Below, piece by piece: positions 14,943 through 25,425 of a stretch of DNA of 49,468 nt. Every line of letters begins with the position of its first letter. The first letter of the stretch is position 1. The position numbers were made by a program, and so were the translations under genes. The stretch is from a virus. The notes under the pieces are model-generated. The model saw only the letters and a program-made list of their open reading frames with translations, made no database searches and was not told the DNA's origin. The stretch lies in IMG/VR virus record IMGVR_UViG_3300025921_000024, positions 1 through 49,468 of that record. One strand, 5' to 3'.

Positions 14943-17144
14943 ATGGCTCCCTTTAACCCTAATATCCAACCCACACCCGGCCCCGGTGTAAAAAATATCG
15001 GAGCCATCGATGTCCCGCAGAACATCAGACCTCAAGGTGTACAGAATAACGAAATCCTTCCTCAAGGTGTACAGCAAGGCGATATGTCTGCCGCTTATGC
15101 CGGAAAGGCTGCGGCAGCAGGTGTAGAAGCGGAGGCAGTAGGTGATAACAAATACGCAGACTTATTCAAAGACCTTGCAGAGACAGGAAACTTCCTCGGC
15201 AAGGCAGGGGTTAATATTGTCAAGAAAGACATCGAAGATAAAGTCTACCAAGTCGCGGACAAAGAAAGGCAGTCGTACACCGATCTCCTTGAAAAGATCA
15301 AAGCAGGTGTAGGTGTCAAGAATGTCCTAGATGCCAACGCAGAAGATACTGGACAAGAAAGCCAACCTGCTGAAGTAGCTAATCTTCCAGATACCTTGTC
15401 TGCTCTTCAAGGTGCAAGAGACTCTGGTAAGATATCTGGGACGTACTATCAATCCCGTCTTCTAGCTGACGCTAAGAATCTTCGTGCTCAGTATCCTGAC
15501 TTCAGAGAAGAAATAGATCGTGCATTCGCTAAGGTAACAGGAACTAATCCTGCTAACGCTTACATAACGAGTCTTGTTCAGGATATCAACAGAGCCACTC
15601 AGGCTTCGGCTTCCGATAAGAACAAGATGCTTACCTACATTCGAGGTAATCTCCAATTCCCCGGTGCTCCTGATGTTTATGCTAAATACAACGCTGGGTT
15701 GATGGATAACAACGACGTAATCAAATGGGCTGCTCCTTATGAACAAGAGAAGTACCAGTTGAATATGCGGGCTCTGAAGTTCCAAGACCAGAATAATACT
15801 CGACAAGATCAACAGCGTATTGCTGGAGATAACATCGATTATGCCTCAGGTGTCTCTGTAGGTCGTGCTGTAGACAGCATGATGCATTCTATGGGTTTGA
15901 ATACTTCAGATGATGTCGGTAGACTTTCAAGCATGGAGGACAATAAGCTTATCCCTCCTACTCAATGGTCACAATGGGGTCAGCAGCTTGCTACTGCTAA
16001 ACTTCAACTACGAAATAGGATGATTTCTGATATAGATGCACAGGGGTATACGAAAGCTGTGGGCGGTAAAGCTGAAGCTATCAAGCGGGTTGATGCTTCT
16101 CTGGCTCCTGTCGACGCTCTTATTGATCGGGTCTATAATCACGATTTCGGAGGTATATATTCGATTAAGACTCAGTTGGCTGCTATGAATGACCAACAGC
16201 AGCAGAAGATGCTAACCGATCCTAAGATTGGTCCTGCTCTTCAGACTGCTAAAGCTCTTAAAGACATCGGTGGTGAGCAGAATCTACAGAATTTTATGCT
16301 TGATACAATTAAAGGAGATTTTCCTCAGAACTTTAAAGCTTGGTACCAAGCGTCTTCTCAAGAGATGCAGACTCAGTATACCATGAAGAATACTGGAGTT
16401 CCTTATACGTTCAATGATCGTATCGATGCCCTGAAGACCTCAGGCATCAACAATGCACAGCTTAACCGTTCAGTTCTTGATGAAGTCTCTAAGATCGCTG
16501 ATCCTAAAATACCTGAAGCTGTTCGTATGAATTACGCATTAGGTGCTTTTTCGGATGGCAACAGAGGTATGATTAGCCGTCTTCAGGCTGATGGTGTAGA
16601 CGCCAATGGTAGACAAGTCTCAGGACAGAACGCTGTCTTCCAGAGATTTACTTCTCCAGAAATGACTCATGCGATGTTCGAGCTTGGTAAGAAAGAACCT
16701 CAAGTCTGGACTAACTATGTCAATTGGGCTAAGGATACTATTGGCTCTGAGTTGATGAATAGAGAGATTAATGACCTTAAAGCGCTTCCTGATAACGCTG
16801 GTGTTCGTGTTGATTGGGACCCTTCTAACCACAGATTCGTTACGGTAGATACGAGTACTCCTGAGAGTCGTGCAGTCATGACTCATATGCGTGGTAATCC
16901 TACTGCACCCGGAGCTAATTCGTATTATAATACAGTTAACGCTACTGTTAACAGAATGAACTCTCAAATCTATAACTTCAAGCGTATAGCTGAAGCCTCA
17001 GGTGATAATGTCGACGCTTTTATACTCAAGACTATTGCAGACGCTGCTGGTCCTGATGCTCTTCAAAATGTTCAGGGAATACCATACAATCTTATTAAGC
17101 AGATAGGTCTGGCTCGTATGAGGACTCCTAATAATGGCGGATAG
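14943..17144 (+). CDS. Internal virion protein (T7 gp15-like position)
   Basis: This 733-residue, soluble, mainly helical protein is rich in Gln, Asn, Asp and Ala. Its N-terminal ~40 residues are Pro/Gly/Asn-rich and extended. The rest alternates helical segments such as MLTYIRGNLQFPG and DRVYNHDFGGIYSIKTQLAA. It lies between the giant ejection protein and the HExxH protein, without gaps, and is comparable in size to T7 gp15 (747 residues), which builds the periplasmic part of the ejectosome. No enzymatic motif is visible. Its stop overlaps the next ATG by 11 bases. Assignment comes from size, order and composition. Confidence 0.65.
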   Translation: MAPFNPNIQPTPGPGVKNIGAIDVPQNIRPQGVQNNEILPQGVQQGDMSAAYAGKAAAAGVEAEAVGDNKYADLFKDLAETGNFLGKAGVNIVKKDIEDKVYQVADKERQSYTDLLEKIKAGVGVKNVLDANAEDTGQESQPAEVANLPDTLSALQGARDSGKISGTYYQSRLLADAKNLRAQYPDFREEIDRAFAKVTGTNPANAYITSLVQDINRATQASASDKNKMLTYIRGNLQFPGAPDVYAKYNAGLMDNNDVIKWAAPYEQEKYQLNMRALKFQDQNNTRQDQQRIAGDNIDYASGVSVGRAVDSMMHSMGLNTSDDVGRLSSMEDNKLIPPTQWSQWGQQLATAKLQLRNRMISDIDAQGYTKAVGGKAEAIKRVDASLAPVDALIDRVYNHDFGGIYSIKTQLAAMNDQQQQKMLTDPKIGPALQTAKALKDIGGEQNLQNFMLDTIKGDFPQNFKAWYQASSQEMQTQYTMKNTGVPYTFNDRIDALKTSGINNAQLNRSVLDEVSKIADPKIPEAVRMNYALGAFSDGNRGMISRLQADGVDANGRQVSGQNAVFQRFTSPEMTHAMFELGKKEPQVWTNYVNWAKDTIGSELMNREINDLKALPDNAGVRVDWDPSNHRFVTVDTSTPESRAVMTHMRGNPTAPGANSYYNTVNATVNRMNSQIYNFKRIAEASGDNVDAFILKTIADAAGPDALQNVQGIPYNLIKQIGLARMRTPNNGG

Positions 17145-18702
17145 TAATTACGTCGCTGATGGTCAAGTCTATGACGACGAGGCTTCTGCTGTCGTAGCTA
17201 ACCATCCTAATATCCCGGATGAGTTGAAGAGGCTATACGTATCTCCTAAACCCCCTCCAGAAGGCTCTACGGAGGCCGCTGGTGCGTTAAAATCATCCGA
17301 GGGTACTAAACCTACCCCTCAAGATGTAGACGCTGTACGGGCTCCTATGGGCGTCATGTCTGACCTAGAAGCTCCTCAAGGAAGTCTTACTGGACAGGTA
17401 TTTGCGCAGAAATTTAAGGACTTCTTAGGAACTCTATGGAACTCAGCTAAGCTTCCCGGAGACGTCGCTGCTGGTGATGTCGATCCTACGTCTCCAGAAG
17501 GTATTCAGAAAGCCAACGATCTTGCTCATGCAATGGTGTTTTATCCAGCTCCTATAGCCTCTAAAGTAGCTGATGGTTCTTTGGGTTCATTTGCTGGTGT
17601 TCGATCTGTATTAGGAAATCCAGAAGCTAGACAGAATCTCTACAACGCAGTACGTGCTGATCTAGAAGGAGCTACTCCTGATGAGATTTACTCAGAGACA
17701 GGATGGTTCAAAGGTAGAGACAATAAATGGAAGTTAGAGATTCCTGATACTAATTCTAAATTAAACGTAGACAACCTTACTCAGATACCTGCTAAATCTG
17801 ATCCTAATGGTTGGACTTTTATTCAAGGAGACGATAAAGTCGGTGTTCCTGAATGGGATTACCAACAGTTCGGCGCGCCTAAACTTGGGGAAATATTAGA
17901 TCATCCGGAGTTATTTAAAGCTTACCCAGAGTTGAAAGACATGGAAGTTCAACGCCTGCCTTCGTATGCACGTAATTTATATAATGGCATGTATGATCCT
18001 AATACCAAAAAGATTTACATGAACGATCTAACTCCTGAGCAGTTTCATTCGACGTTACTACATGAAACTCAACATGCCATTCAAGACATGGAAGGATTTG
18101 CCACAGGAGGTAACTCTACGATGTTTACTCCTCAAGGATTAGATGCCGCTACTAAACAATGGCGTGATGCAGAAAATGGACTGCTGCAAGAAGCCAAACA
18201 ACTCGGAGTAAATCCTGGAGAGTTCGGCGTAATGCAAGGCCAAGTCGGAATGGAACTTAAAGGTTGGCCTCAAGATTACATCAAACAAGATGTAATTAAG
18301 AAAGCCAAAGACTTAGGACTATATGAACGCATTAGAAATATCGAGAAAGGCAGGCTTCTGCTTCGCAGTCAGTCTGAAAGACAAGACGAGTATTACCGGA
18401 GATTGATGGGTGAAGTTGAAGCAAGGAATGTCCAACGTCGAATGAACATGAGCCCTGCTGAATTAAATACTACACATCCGTTCGCTACCGAAGACAGACC
18501 GAGCTTTGTTCAATTAAATAGTTCAAACAATACTCCGTCAGGTTCCGAAGTAATTCCTTTCCGTCGTGCCGCTAATGATAATGTTTCTCCTGAAGAGTTT
18601 GTAAAGAAGTTCTTAAGTGATCTTCCTGAGTATACTAAGACAGAACGTGATGATATTCTTACACGGCTTAAAGAAGCTCTTGATGAGCAAAACAAGGAAT
18701 AA
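17134..18702 (+). CDS. Putative Zn-metallopeptidase-like protein, last gene of the late block
   Basis: This 522-residue protein starts at ATG 17134. The block DEIYSETGWFKGRDNKWKLE is typical of large polyvalent protein-associated (LPD) domains found in phage and mobile-element proteins. About 130 residues later STLLHETQHAIQD contains an HExxH zinc motif (His310, Glu311, His314), consistent with a gluzincin-like peptidase; a downstream glutamate ligand is plausible but not pinpointed. The C-terminal third is charged and helical, with an ANDN motif in RRAANDNVSPEEF. Position after the ejection proteins suggests a virion protein delivered with the DNA, perhaps cleaving a host or core protein. 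A bidirectional terminator follows. Confidence 0.65.
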   Translation: MADSNYVADGQVYDDEASAVVANHPNIPDELKRLYVSPKPPPEGSTEAAGALKSSEGTKPTPQDVDAVRAPMGVMSDLEAPQGSLTGQVFAQKFKDFLGTLWNSAKLPGDVAAGDVDPTSPEGIQKANDLAHAMVFYPAPIASKVADGSLGSFAGVRSVLGNPEARQNLYNAVRADLEGATPDEIYSETGWFKGRDNKWKLEIPDTNSKLNVDNLTQIPAKSDPNGWTFIQGDDKVGVPEWDYQQFGAPKLGEILDHPELFKAYPELKDMEVQRLPSYARNLYNGMYDPNTKKIYMNDLTPEQFHSTLLHETQHAIQDMEGFATGGNSTMFTPQGLDAATKQWRDAENGLLQEAKQLGVNPGEFGVMQGQVGMELKGWPQDYIKQDVIKKAKDLGLYERIRNIEKGRLLLRSQSERQDEYYRRLMGEVEARNVQRRMNMSPAELNTTHPFATEDRPSFVQLNSSNNTPSGSEVIPFRRAANDNVSPEEFVKKFLSDLPEYTKTERDDILTRLKEALDEQNKE

Positions 18703-21131: not shown

Positions 21132-21980
21132 TCAAGACTTGAAGACTTCAATACCGTCTGGTTTTTTGAAGATGGTAACATAATCAATTGGTTTTCCTTT
21201 GACAATAAAGGTGCGGAGGTTTGGGAAGCAAAAATGTTTGTAGGGGTTGTAAGAAGCTTTCGTATCAAGCTTGATGTTTCCCGTAATTCTTTCCTGCACT
21301 GTTTGGCAAGTGCAACGAGGTGGGCTTTCGCTTGCAACAATTGCTTTATATTCAGTAACTCTTTTCCTGATACTATCGGGCCGTACTCTGTGTTCATGTA
21401 AATACATATGTCCTAGTTGTTTATCAATCGCCCAGATATAGGCGAACTCCTTATTGGTTACTAAAGGGTCATCAAGAGATGCCACAGAATACCCGTCCAA
21501 CTGATCCAGATAGGACCGTAGAAAAATATCCTCTTCAACTTTCCCAGCTTTGAACGTTTCCATACCACGGCTTGCAACAGACTTGACATCCACAATACAG
21601 CCGTCAATGACACAATCACGATGACCTTTGATACCATCAAGCTCGCATTCATCTTGCTCTCCCGTAACCGTATGGCCAGCAGCTTTAGCAAGAGCTATAG
21701 CGAGTTGCTCGATTACATGGCCGTAGTGGAAGATAATTCTGGTTTGTGGTCTGAAGGGCGTTTGTAGGCTTGGTGCACGAACAGATGCCCACAGGGATCG
21801 CGGGCACTTCTCTCCCATTGCCGATAGACGGAGAGCAGGTACAACGTCTCTTGGTCTAAGGCCTTGATGGATTGCACGTCCCAGTTCTCCACAATATCTT
21901 TCAGATTGTAGTTCGTCGAACCACTCTTCGTTGCTGACGACATCGTAGACATCCTTGATTAAAGTTTTAATTGATTTCAT
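21132..21980 (-). CDS. PD-(D/E)XK exonuclease, RecB/Cas4-like
   Basis: This 282-residue protein has the core of a PD-(D/E)XK nuclease: GHVIEQL (Glu91), GHRDCVID with Asp122, then IVDVKS with Asp131 and Lys133, followed by a helix with QLDGYSVAS. Cysteines near the start (Cys30, Cys59) and in the C-terminal third (RCTCQ and a later Cys) might bind a metal cluster, as in Cas4/AddB-like nucleases, but the arrangement is not certain. In this phage it probably replaces T7 gp6 in host DNA breakdown, primer removal or recombination. It is followed by endonuclease VII and preceded by a metallophosphoesterase. Confidence 0.75.
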   Translation of the reverse strand: MKSIKTLIKDVYDVVSNEEWFDELQSERYCGELGRAIHQGLRPRDVVPALRLSAMGEKCPRSLWASVRAPSLQTPFRPQTRIIFHYGHVIEQLAIALAKAAGHTVTGEQDECELDGIKGHRDCVIDGCIVDVKSVASRGMETFKAGKVEEDIFLRSYLDQLDGYSVASLDDPLVTNKEFAYIWAIDKQLGHMYLHEHRVRPDSIRKRVTEYKAIVASESPPRCTCQTVQERITGNIKLDTKASYNPYKHFCFPNLRTFIVKGKPIDYVTIFKKPDGIEVFKS

Positions 21981-22776: not shown

Positions 22777-23106
22777 TCACCTAAACAGTACGTGGAGGGC
22801 TGCTGAACACATAAGGACTGCGAGCGGGAATGTCGCTACAAGCAGTGTGCTGATCTGATTGGCAGACCAACCCTCATCCTTCTTGTCCTTCTTTTCTTCC
22901 TTCTTGTTTGCCTTCTCGTAATCAGAAAGCAACTTCTTGAGGTTCTCTGCTCGTTCAATCTCACGATGAATAAAAGCAGTGACATCGATGTCTCGATAGT
23001 CGAAGTCGTTAATGCGGACTTTCTTACGCTTCGGCTTATCTGGCTTCTGCGCCATCTTGGTCACAAATTCCAGAAGAGCCATAGTCTCACCGTAACCTTT
23101 GCTCAT
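22777..23106 (-). CDS. Tail-anchored membrane protein with charged coiled coil
   Basis: This 109-residue protein has a strong ribosome-binding site (AGGAGG before ATG 23106). The N-terminal ~85 residues are highly charged, with a basic KPDKPKRKKVRINDF stretch and a helix ERAENLKKLLSDYEKANKKE. One C-terminal hydrophobic helix (ISTLLVATFPLAVLMCSAAL) anchors it, giving N-in topology. It is the first gene after the 1.8-kb non-coding locus, separated from it by a 9-bp stem-loop (23129-23160). A small tail-anchored protein beside a large structured RNA is a notable arrangement, but a functional link is speculation. Confidence 0.65.
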   Translation of the reverse strand: MSKGYGETMALLEFVTKMAQKPDKPKRKKVRINDFDYRDIDVTAFIHREIERAENLKKLLSDYEKANKKEEKKDKKDEGWSANQISTLLVATFPLAVLMCSAALHVLFR

Positions 23107-23128
23107 GATAACCTCCTGTGGTGGCTCA

Positions 23129-23160
23129 GGAGCGGAGTGTCTTATGTTTCTCTCCGCTCC
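23129..23160 (-). promoter_or_regulatory. 9-bp stem-loop in the leader of the tail-anchored protein gene
   Basis: Read leftwards, GGAGCGGAG pairs with CTCCGCTCC across a 14-base loop. It lies just upstream of the AGGAGG site and separates the non-coding locus from the gene. It could be an RNase III processing site or an end of the structured RNA. Confidence 0.5.
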
Positions 23161-24151
23161 CTGCCCTTCTTATTCTTAAGGGGGTTGAGGGAGTTGACGA
23201 CTGAATTTTAATTGGGGGTGCAGGTTGTGGGGTTGAACATCACGCATGTTGGCCTCGCTTCCTGCTGGTGTGAATTTTAGGACGAAGTATTCCGATCTTG
23301 TTCTGTTCGGTTTGCAGTCATGTCACGACCGCTACTAAGGACTTACTATAGATTGACCCCAATCACACTGCTTCCAGTAGAGTCATAGGGCTCGGACATA
23401 CAACATCGTTGCTTGGTGTTCGTCAAGACCAAACCACAACATCCGGTTGTAGTTCCGCGTTCTACTTAGCCATACCTATAGATGAACCTCTCGGCCCATG
23501 AGGTATACAAGGCAAAGGTAACTGCCGTGTCTTACGATAACCCCGACGTTTAGAACGTCGTCTGCTTGCTCTTTCTGATAAACAATCAGCGAGCCTCACC
23601 TCGGAGGGTTTCTCTATTATCCGTCATAACTGTGTCATAGACCTTGGCTCACCACCAAGAACGGAGCATCGAGGGATACAAGGGTTGATTTCCAGACCCT
23701 GCTGGCTGACTTCTTTATAGACTGGTCTAAGTCCAATCAACGCTTCAAAGCGTGTCTAGACGATGGTCGTCGGATGTCTTTCTCTTCATCGATGCCTGTA
23801 TATCCAGACACATCGATGTACATCCATCCAATCGGAACCTGAGATTGAGTGACTAACAGCGGACCCAACGAGAGGACAGCGATTTCCTCTAACGCACTTC
23901 CGGTTAGACGGTCTATCAGCAGTGGGTGGGCATGATTGAGAGTCATGCTTACCTTAATCCTAACGGTAAGAAATGGTACCGTATCACCATATATCGAGAA
24001 GGAACCGTACTGTTCGGACCTAACTCTCCCTACACCTCGAAACATGAGCATGGTCGCTACGCTGCTTGAGATCGATTGCACTCGATCTACGTACCAGAAG
24101 ACTTGCCATATACTACGGAGACTTAGCCACCGGCCATTATCGTCGATCTTG

Positions 24152-24170
24152 GGTAGGGGTCGAACCTACC
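24152..24170 (-). other. T-arm-like hairpin within the RNA locus
   Basis: Read leftwards, GGTAGG and CCTACC form a 6-bp stem closing the 7-base loop TTCGACC, the consensus of a tRNA T-loop. I could not complete a canonical tRNA around it: the best acceptor partner (GTTCTGG) gives one mismatch, and D-arm and variable loop do not fit. Confidence 0.5.
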
Positions 24171-24215
24171 TTCGTCTCACGCTCGAAGCTCTCAGGTTTC
24201 GTTCACCAGAACACC

Positions 24216-24230
24216 ACGGAATTGAACCGT
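24216..24230 (-). other. Second T-loop-like hairpin within the RNA locus
   Basis: ACGG and CCGT close the 7-base loop TTCAATT. It lies about 50 bases upstream (in the - direction) of the first T-arm-like hairpin. Here too no complete cloverleaf can be drawn. Confidence 0.4.
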
Positions 24231-24945
24231 TATCTCAACAGAGTGGTACTTCGAGACGGCATCTTCAGCTATCCGTCATCATGTTAGTGTTCAGGGCTTG
24301 ACAGGTGTGCCCTACTGGTCAGCTAGGCTATACCTAGGCTGACGGGTTTTCTCGCGGTTCCCCCGAAGGGATCATGAGGAGTACGCACCGTACCCTCAAA
24401 CCATTATTTTAGCATCGAGGGCTAATGAGACCCTTGCGCTCGGACTTCGCTTCAGTCTGTGCATCCCGACTACCGGTCCAGTACTGGTCATCACACTCAC
24501 CGTGATGCTCATTTGTTAACGGGCAGGTCCCGTAGATGAAGCTAATCGGATCACGCGTTGTTAGGGGTTAAGCTTTGAGGCTCGTGACACTAATCCGGTG
24601 CCGTCATAATGCTCTCGCGGATACCCGCTACCGGGCTGCAACCTGCATGCGGTACAATTCTCACCGAAGGTGGAACCTCATGCAAGCTGGGAGCGCTCAA
24701 TCGTGTGGACGGAGAGCGCACACACGCTAGACCTATTCCGGATCAGAGTAGGTAAGCGATTAAAGAATAGAGACCGGCTTTACGAGCACCCGGTCTTGCC
24801 GCAACACGTTCCTTATTTCAGTCTCCCTCCTAACGGGCTAGTGGTAGGGAGACACTGCGTTTGCCCGTAGACATTATTCTACCTAACGCAGGGCGCGGGA
24901 GTAGTAGCACCATATAGTCGCTTTGGACGTTCAGGCGCTAGTAGT

Positions 24946-25425
24946 TTACCAAACAGTTTCTACTTCAGCTTCAGCCTTTGGCCTAGCTGGTCCAGCAGGA
25001 ACGAGGTTCTCTACTGTGACTCCATATAACCGAATGGAATTGCCCCATCGTTCTGAGTTAGGGACTTTATATTTCCTAAGCTCACAAGTCACAGTGACAT
25101 CGCTACCATCCCCGACACGATCATCGATGGGTTTCTTTTCGGCATCACGGACTTTAGGAGGGGTTACCGTCGTTTGAACTCCCTTCTGGAACTCAATCGA
25201 AGTCGGACGGCTGATCTGAAGAAACCAACCATCGTCATCCTTCTTGAAGACATTCTTCAATTGAAGTTCACGAAGACGCTCTAACGACTCATTATCAGGA
25301 TAAAGATTGATACTCCAATTACCAAACCTATTAGGATCGATAAGCTGAGCCCATGTGACTTTACCTTTAAAGCTCACAAGCTCTGTGTCTTTACCTTTAT
25401 CGTATACTCTAGTATCAGCGATCAT
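24946..25425 (-). CDS. Single-stranded DNA-binding protein-like (T7 gp2.5 type)
   Basis: The 159-residue protein opens with MIADTRVYDKGKDTELVSFK and GKVTWAQLIDPNRFGNWSIN, an OB-fold-like start. Later strands follow (VTCELRKYKVPNSERWGNSI, then RLYGVTVENLVP) and a C-terminal tail with several glutamates ending in Trp. An acidic tail with a terminal aromatic residue is the hallmark of T7 gp2.5-type SSBs, which contact the polymerase and helicase through it; here the tail is shorter and less acidic. It follows the DNA polymerase and a 54-residue gene, as expected for the replication cluster. Its start overlaps that small gene by 11 bases. Confidence 0.65.
   Translation of the reverse strand: MIADTRVYDKGKDTELVSFKGKVTWAQLIDPNRFGNWSINLYPDNESLERLRELQLKNVFKKDDDGWFLQISRPTSIEFQKGVQTTVTPPKVRDAEKKPIDDRVGDGSDVTVTCELRKYKVPNSERWGNSIRLYGVTVENLVPAGPARPKAEAEVETVW

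Follow-up and report, generated by a model that had tools for sequence, protein, structure and literature searches.

What occupies a stretch of 1,839 nt on the minus strand of a phage genome in which no credible gene can be recognized? This question is raised by the window studied here, the complete 49,468-nucleotide stretch of IMG/VR virus record IMGVR_UViG_3300025921_000024, in which the interval separates the gene for an SSB-like protein from that for a small membrane protein (Table 1). The first-pass annotation had interpreted about 1.8 kb of it as a candidate giant structured non-coding RNA; the gap itself is real and slightly longer than proposed. We have taken the neighbouring genes as the boundaries of the RNA, and the real ends of the transcript are not determined. 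Elsewhere in the window, on the plus strand (17134-18702), a 522-amino acid protein matches with its middle part short segments of functionally uncharacterized PHROG proteins of very large size.

A gene-free slot in the replication operon of related soil phages

We gathered 80 IMG/VR loci with the DNA polymerase as the query; the exonuclease, when used in the same way, retrieved one contig only. The window gave no nucleotide match to INPHARED phages, and a search of genome contigs revealed neither a host nor a prophage. The terminase is 57-62% identical to that of cultured Cobavirinae (e.g., SIO1, ICBM1-3, CRP-5), and the lineage carrying the giant RNA consists of soil phages related to the Zobellviridae/Cobavirinae in which the RNA is encoded in the replication operon. 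We refer to the position between the SSB and exonuclease genes as the slot. In each of the 56 non-redundant soil-clade relatives that carry both genes (the complete loci, which serve as the denominator below), the slot is present at the same position without conserved ORFs and spans 1,490-4,156 nt (median 2,256 nt; small downstream gene included). About 60 related soil phages share, at one and the same place in their genomes, a giant folded RNA not described before. A codon model trained on the window transferred badly to these relatives.

The marine isolates CRP-5, ICBM2, and CRP-13 have no comparable gap in their polymerase-SSB-exonuclease stretch. Four loci (L063, L065, L068, and L069), whose polymerase is 44-45% identical, are likewise devoid of the giant RNA and possess at most 371 nt in the slot; in the polymerase tree, these four RNA-less tips fall outside the 70-tip RNA-bearing group (group support 0.9). 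A tRNA-Trp gene occupies the slot of one member of this outgroup (L063, 8822-8897). Inside or at the end of giant-RNA slots, a tRNA-Ile is predicted in L007 (9425-9496; supported by Rfam) and a tRNA-Lys in L045 (10341-10436; ARAGORN only).

The comparison with Rfam that the initial proposal called for yielded no match at the gathering score across the whole window and nothing meaningful within the RNA region at E ≤ 5. At E ≤ 5, the models for GOLLD, ROOL, and OLE matched neither the window nor L012, L062, or L043, and 21 loci searched over their full length gave no match at the gathering score, while neither Rfam nor ARAGORN detected a group I/II intron, tmRNA, or tRNA in the window. Since the window lacks a tRNA, the analogy to giant phage RNAs situated near tRNAs does not hold here; among the relatives, only a few have a tRNA. 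No such RNA is described in the open-access papers that we searched, but most subscription papers and preprints lay outside this search, so that its absence from the literature is unproven.

Conserved loops and covarying helices

The fold energies of the two halves of the RNA region (z = -1.9 and -2.1) are matched by that of a coding control (z = -1.9). We therefore rejected fold energy as evidence, which renders a thermodynamic argument for the first-pass annotation unusable, and it is the comparative evidence that carries the claim of a structured RNA. RNAalifold hardly separated the sense strand from its reverse complement when applied to the whole alignment, and for this reason targeted domains were used. 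An R-scape-like test of all pairs in eight sequences returned nothing at E < 0.05, a sample too small for power.

An alignment of a cluster of eight sequences, about 1.3 kb long, shows conserved islands that alternate with variable helices. Many indels are present, and those that break a reading frame fall between the islands; yet covarying pairs accompany them, so that the conditions under which the first-pass annotation would have been refuted are not fulfilled. A reading as unannotated or decayed protein-coding sequence could draw on two overlapping ORFs of 114 and 121 amino acids on opposite strands of the window gap. However, the longest open stretch does not exceed what shuffling predicts (142 codons; P 0.15), and none of the ORFs inside the gap is conserved among the relatives compared. 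Because of these chance-level ORF lengths, the missing conservation, the frame-breaking indels, and the covarying helices, we regard the coding interpretation as refuted.

Covariation lies far above shuffled, antisense, and coding controls. Within a 29-pair junction domain, two-sided changes occur at 17 pairs, and the number of cells with such changes (42) exceeds that of shuffles (15.9) and of slid controls (4-8). A covariance model built from the junction of one cluster (model R1) matches the same slot in L020 (E 4e-8) and L002 (E 1e-7), and weakly in L001 (E 0.011). Searches with loops alone, in which no stem is required and which are hence unbiased as to pairing, gave a concordant picture. 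For the loop TCYCATTAR, 24 of the 25 slot occurrences have flanks with 4 bp or more, comprising all pair types; its one antisense and four coding occurrences have no such flanks. For the loop TTCRANY, at least four of five flanking positions pair in 97/168 slot occurrences, as opposed to 10/173 in antisense and 45/623 in coding sequence. Both loops are present in the window.

The window RNA is tied directly to this family by a two-helix hairpin (23917-23958) found in 11 phages, including L062, L020, and the members of cluster A. Its stems were aligned by hand, and the loop alone served to find the copies in the window, L062, and L020. The inner stem occurs in eight different versions and is complementary in all 44 cells, a result reached by 0/20,000 shuffles; in the nine phages whose outer helix has its full set of three pairs, 27/27 cells of that helix are paired. 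The UUCG-capped hairpin and the two T-loop-like hairpins noticed at first pass are also present in the window (Table 1). Collectively, synteny, the lack of a coding signal, strand-specific conserved loops, and covariation uphold the proposal of a giant structured RNA: the slot encodes a conserved, strand-specific structured RNA composed of variable helices capped by conserved loops, T-arms among them.

Table 1. Features of the window in and around the giant RNA region.
Feature	Position	Strand	Support
Giant structured ncRNA region (entire gap from SSB gene to small-protein gene)	23107..24945	-	Synteny; no conserved ORF; covarying hairpins
gp2.5-like SSB gene, upstream neighbour	24946..25425	-	phrog_112, E 6.9e-5; in most relatives
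Gene for small K/E-rich protein, transmembrane helix at C-terminus; downstream neighbour	22777..23106	-	Equivalent ORF in 49/56 loci
Cas4-type exonuclease gene, far-side marker of slot	21132..21980	-	phrog_1990, E 1.9e-22
Hairpin GACCGG-GTGCTCGTAAAG-CCGGTC	24772..24795	-	Loop kept in L062 and L071; compensatory stem change
Hairpin with conserved loop TCTCATTAG	24417..24435	-	Loop-only test, 24/25 in slots
UUCG-capped hairpin CCC-UUCG-GGG	24361..24370	-	Sequence only
T-arm-like hairpin ACGG-TTCAATT-CCGT	24216..24230	-	6.7 bits to T-arm part of model R2
tRNA T-arm hairpin GTAGG-TTCGACC-CCTAC	24153..24169	-	Family-wide 77 sense, 0 antisense
Two-helix hairpin AAGG-TA-AGCAT-GACTCTCAATC-ATGCC-CACCC	23917..23958	-	Common to window and 10 phages; alignment A6
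3' island CAACCCCCTTAAGAATAAG	23169..23187	-	Counterpart of ACCTCCTTAA / CCACCTTAAG near RNA 3' end in many relatives
3' hairpin GGAGCGGAG...CTCCGCTCC	23129..23160	-	Replaced in L062 by GCCAGC-AAAA-GCTGGC
Hairpin CTCCTG...CAGGAG	23113..23132	-	Covering of downstream gene's Shine-Dalgarno inferred

A circularly permuted tRNA-like module

Across the slots, T-arm hairpins occur 77 times in sense and never in antisense orientation, with 0.1 expected. An acceptor in the normal tRNA order around these T-arms was tested and rejected, and a permuted order was hence considered. Many slots present three elements in succession, namely a T-arm, a closed acceptor-like hairpin, and a D-arm (e.g., TGGCGAAATTGGCAAACGC); together they form a circularly permuted tRNA-like module in more than 20 phages. 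In ten of these, 95.6% of the cells are paired, two-sided changes occur at all six acceptor pairs, and the covariation score is 0.66, as compared with 0.18 after shuffling. The positions equivalent to U8, A14, G18-G19, and U48 of the elbow, and those equivalent to T54-T55-C56 and A58 of the T-loop, are invariant or nearly so.

A covariance model of the permuted module (model R2), for which T-arm and D-arm instances had been selected partly for pairing, matches eight held-out loci (L008, L042, L064, L054, L022, L029, L044, and L074) with E values of 3e-10 to 5e-7. Nearly all of its matches in phages outside the training set fall within the slot and have the orientation of the RNA. One match falls outside the slot and extends across the start of a tRNA-Leu gene (L053, 93-193; E 1e-4). 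The module is recognized in about 20-25 of 64 slots. A complete copy was not found in the window, where model R2 recognizes two T-arms only; the full module is therefore a property of the family that remains unshown for the window itself.

The bacterial Y RNA YrlA (RF02553), which possesses an Rsr/Ro60-binding stem and a neighbouring Ro60 gene, displays the same permuted order of T-arm, closed acceptor-like hairpin, and D-arm, and its Rfam model matches L043 with 29.4 bits, below the gathering score of 69 bits. YrlA superposes on tRNA by circular permutation (PMC11472068). It is, however, a small RNA, whereas the slot module is one domain of a giant one.

Possible roles of the RNA and of its protein neighbour

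Directly after the RNA, 49 of the 56 complete loci carry a charged-rich ORF of about 70-125 amino acids with a C-terminal transmembrane helix; ORFs of this type were found in 1/53 (polymerase) and 0/56 (antisense) controls. No family model matches the protein convincingly, and the small ORFs checked in marine relatives are unlike it. Its putative role as a partner of the RNA rests on synteny alone, without binding data. A precedent for such an arrangement is OLE, an RNA of about 600 nt in Bacillota, whose partner OapA has four predicted transmembrane helices. The slot protein, in contrast, has a single C-terminal helix, and neither a sequence nor a model match indicates homology. The likeness lies in the gene order, since at ole-oapA the large RNA is immediately followed by the gene for a charged membrane protein (PMC12265935).

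That the slot encodes a real new class of structured RNA we regard, on its own, as nearly certain. We also lean, with some reservation, toward the combined reading of a new class of giant multidomain structured RNA of about 1.2-3 kb that operates through a membrane-associated ribonucleoprotein. Co-transcription with the early genes is inferred because no minus-strand terminator was found within the RNA region of the window; expression data are not available. The RNA would act in trans, its conserved loops may serve tertiary docking, and it might bind the small C-tail-anchored protein encoded downstream. Together they could constitute a membrane-associated ribonucleoprotein or scaffold during phage replication, functionally akin to OLE RNA with OapA, while the tRNA-like part may recruit a tRNA-binding host factor. 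Taken by itself, this mechanism is tentative and falls somewhat short of an even chance, as it is inferred without data on expression, binding, or localization. A bolder version, in which an RNA machine of ribosome-subunit scale (up to about 3 kb) with permuted tRNA elbows is anchored in the membrane by its dedicated small protein during genome replication, strikes us as unlikely but worth stating; if true, it would represent a class of ribonucleoprotein without known counterpart.

The missing terminator and the position of the RNA region inside one operon are also compatible with a very long cis-acting leader that controls translation or processing of the mRNA for the small protein and the exonuclease, without a function in trans. 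The ACCTCCTTAA-type motifs, a hairpin, and the hairpin inferred to cover the Shine-Dalgarno sequence just upstream of the small gene fit such a leader, but a multidomain structure of 1.2-3 kb with tRNA-like modules is far larger than known leaders, and most conserved loops lie 0.5-1.5 kb away from the start codon, so that we consider this explanation rather improbable. Somewhat less credence still is given to a tRNA-mimicking decoy or YrlA-like tether whose elbows of T-arm and D-arm would either sequester tRNA-binding enzymes or draw them in (modification enzymes, RNase P, anti-phage tRNases, or a Ro60-type protein). It would account for the retained elbow nucleotides and the match of the YrlA model, itself that of a permuted tRNA mimic; however, the limited number of slots with a recognizable module and the T-arms-only state of the window speak against it, and the module is too small a part to account for an RNA of 1.5-3 kb.

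A highly divergent GOLLD or ROOL RNA is very improbable. GOLLD (RF02032), which forms a multimeric RNA-only nanocage, is likewise a giant ornate phage RNA of unknown function with variable and conserved domains and an occasional tRNA inside or nearby, as in the slot of L007, and ROOL is also a large phage RNA with a complex fold. Neither covariance model matched in the loci searched, and the slot RNA is much larger than ROOL and resides in another gene context. GOLLD measures about 800 nt and is often found beside tRNA arrays (PMC12286853), whereas the slot RNA extends over 1.2-3 kb within a replication operon, contains permuted tRNA-like modules, and has a membrane-protein gene as its neighbour. 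We favour the new RNA class over these alternatives. To our knowledge, giant structured RNAs other than those of the ribosome are very few, and for none of them has a function been settled. The slot RNA is longer than the giant RNAs compared, is present in every complete genome segment of the phage clade examined, and has, besides a module that can be related to both tRNA and Y RNA, a candidate protein partner; these properties make its mechanism directly testable.

Three observations concern the ends of the RNA. The ACCTCCTTAA motif, which resembles the 3' end of 16S rRNA (anti-Shine-Dalgarno), recurs in many relatives at the slot 3' end, 30-100 nt upstream of the small-protein start, and has its window counterpart in CCCCCTTAAG (23169-23187); kissing of TGGAGGCTAAAA with CCTCC was considered, but among the slots these motifs show no covariation. 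A weak Rfam match to the Mu-gpT-DE RNA (23104-23131; 22.5 bits, gathering score 49) overlies the ribosome-binding region of the small gene. Finally, the 5' hairpin GGCAAG-ACTG-GGTGCTCGTAAAGCC recurs at a contig end (L096, 13850-13999, on the contig of L019), about 4 kb downstream of the place where the slot usually lies, and this phage may therefore hold a second or relocated giant RNA.
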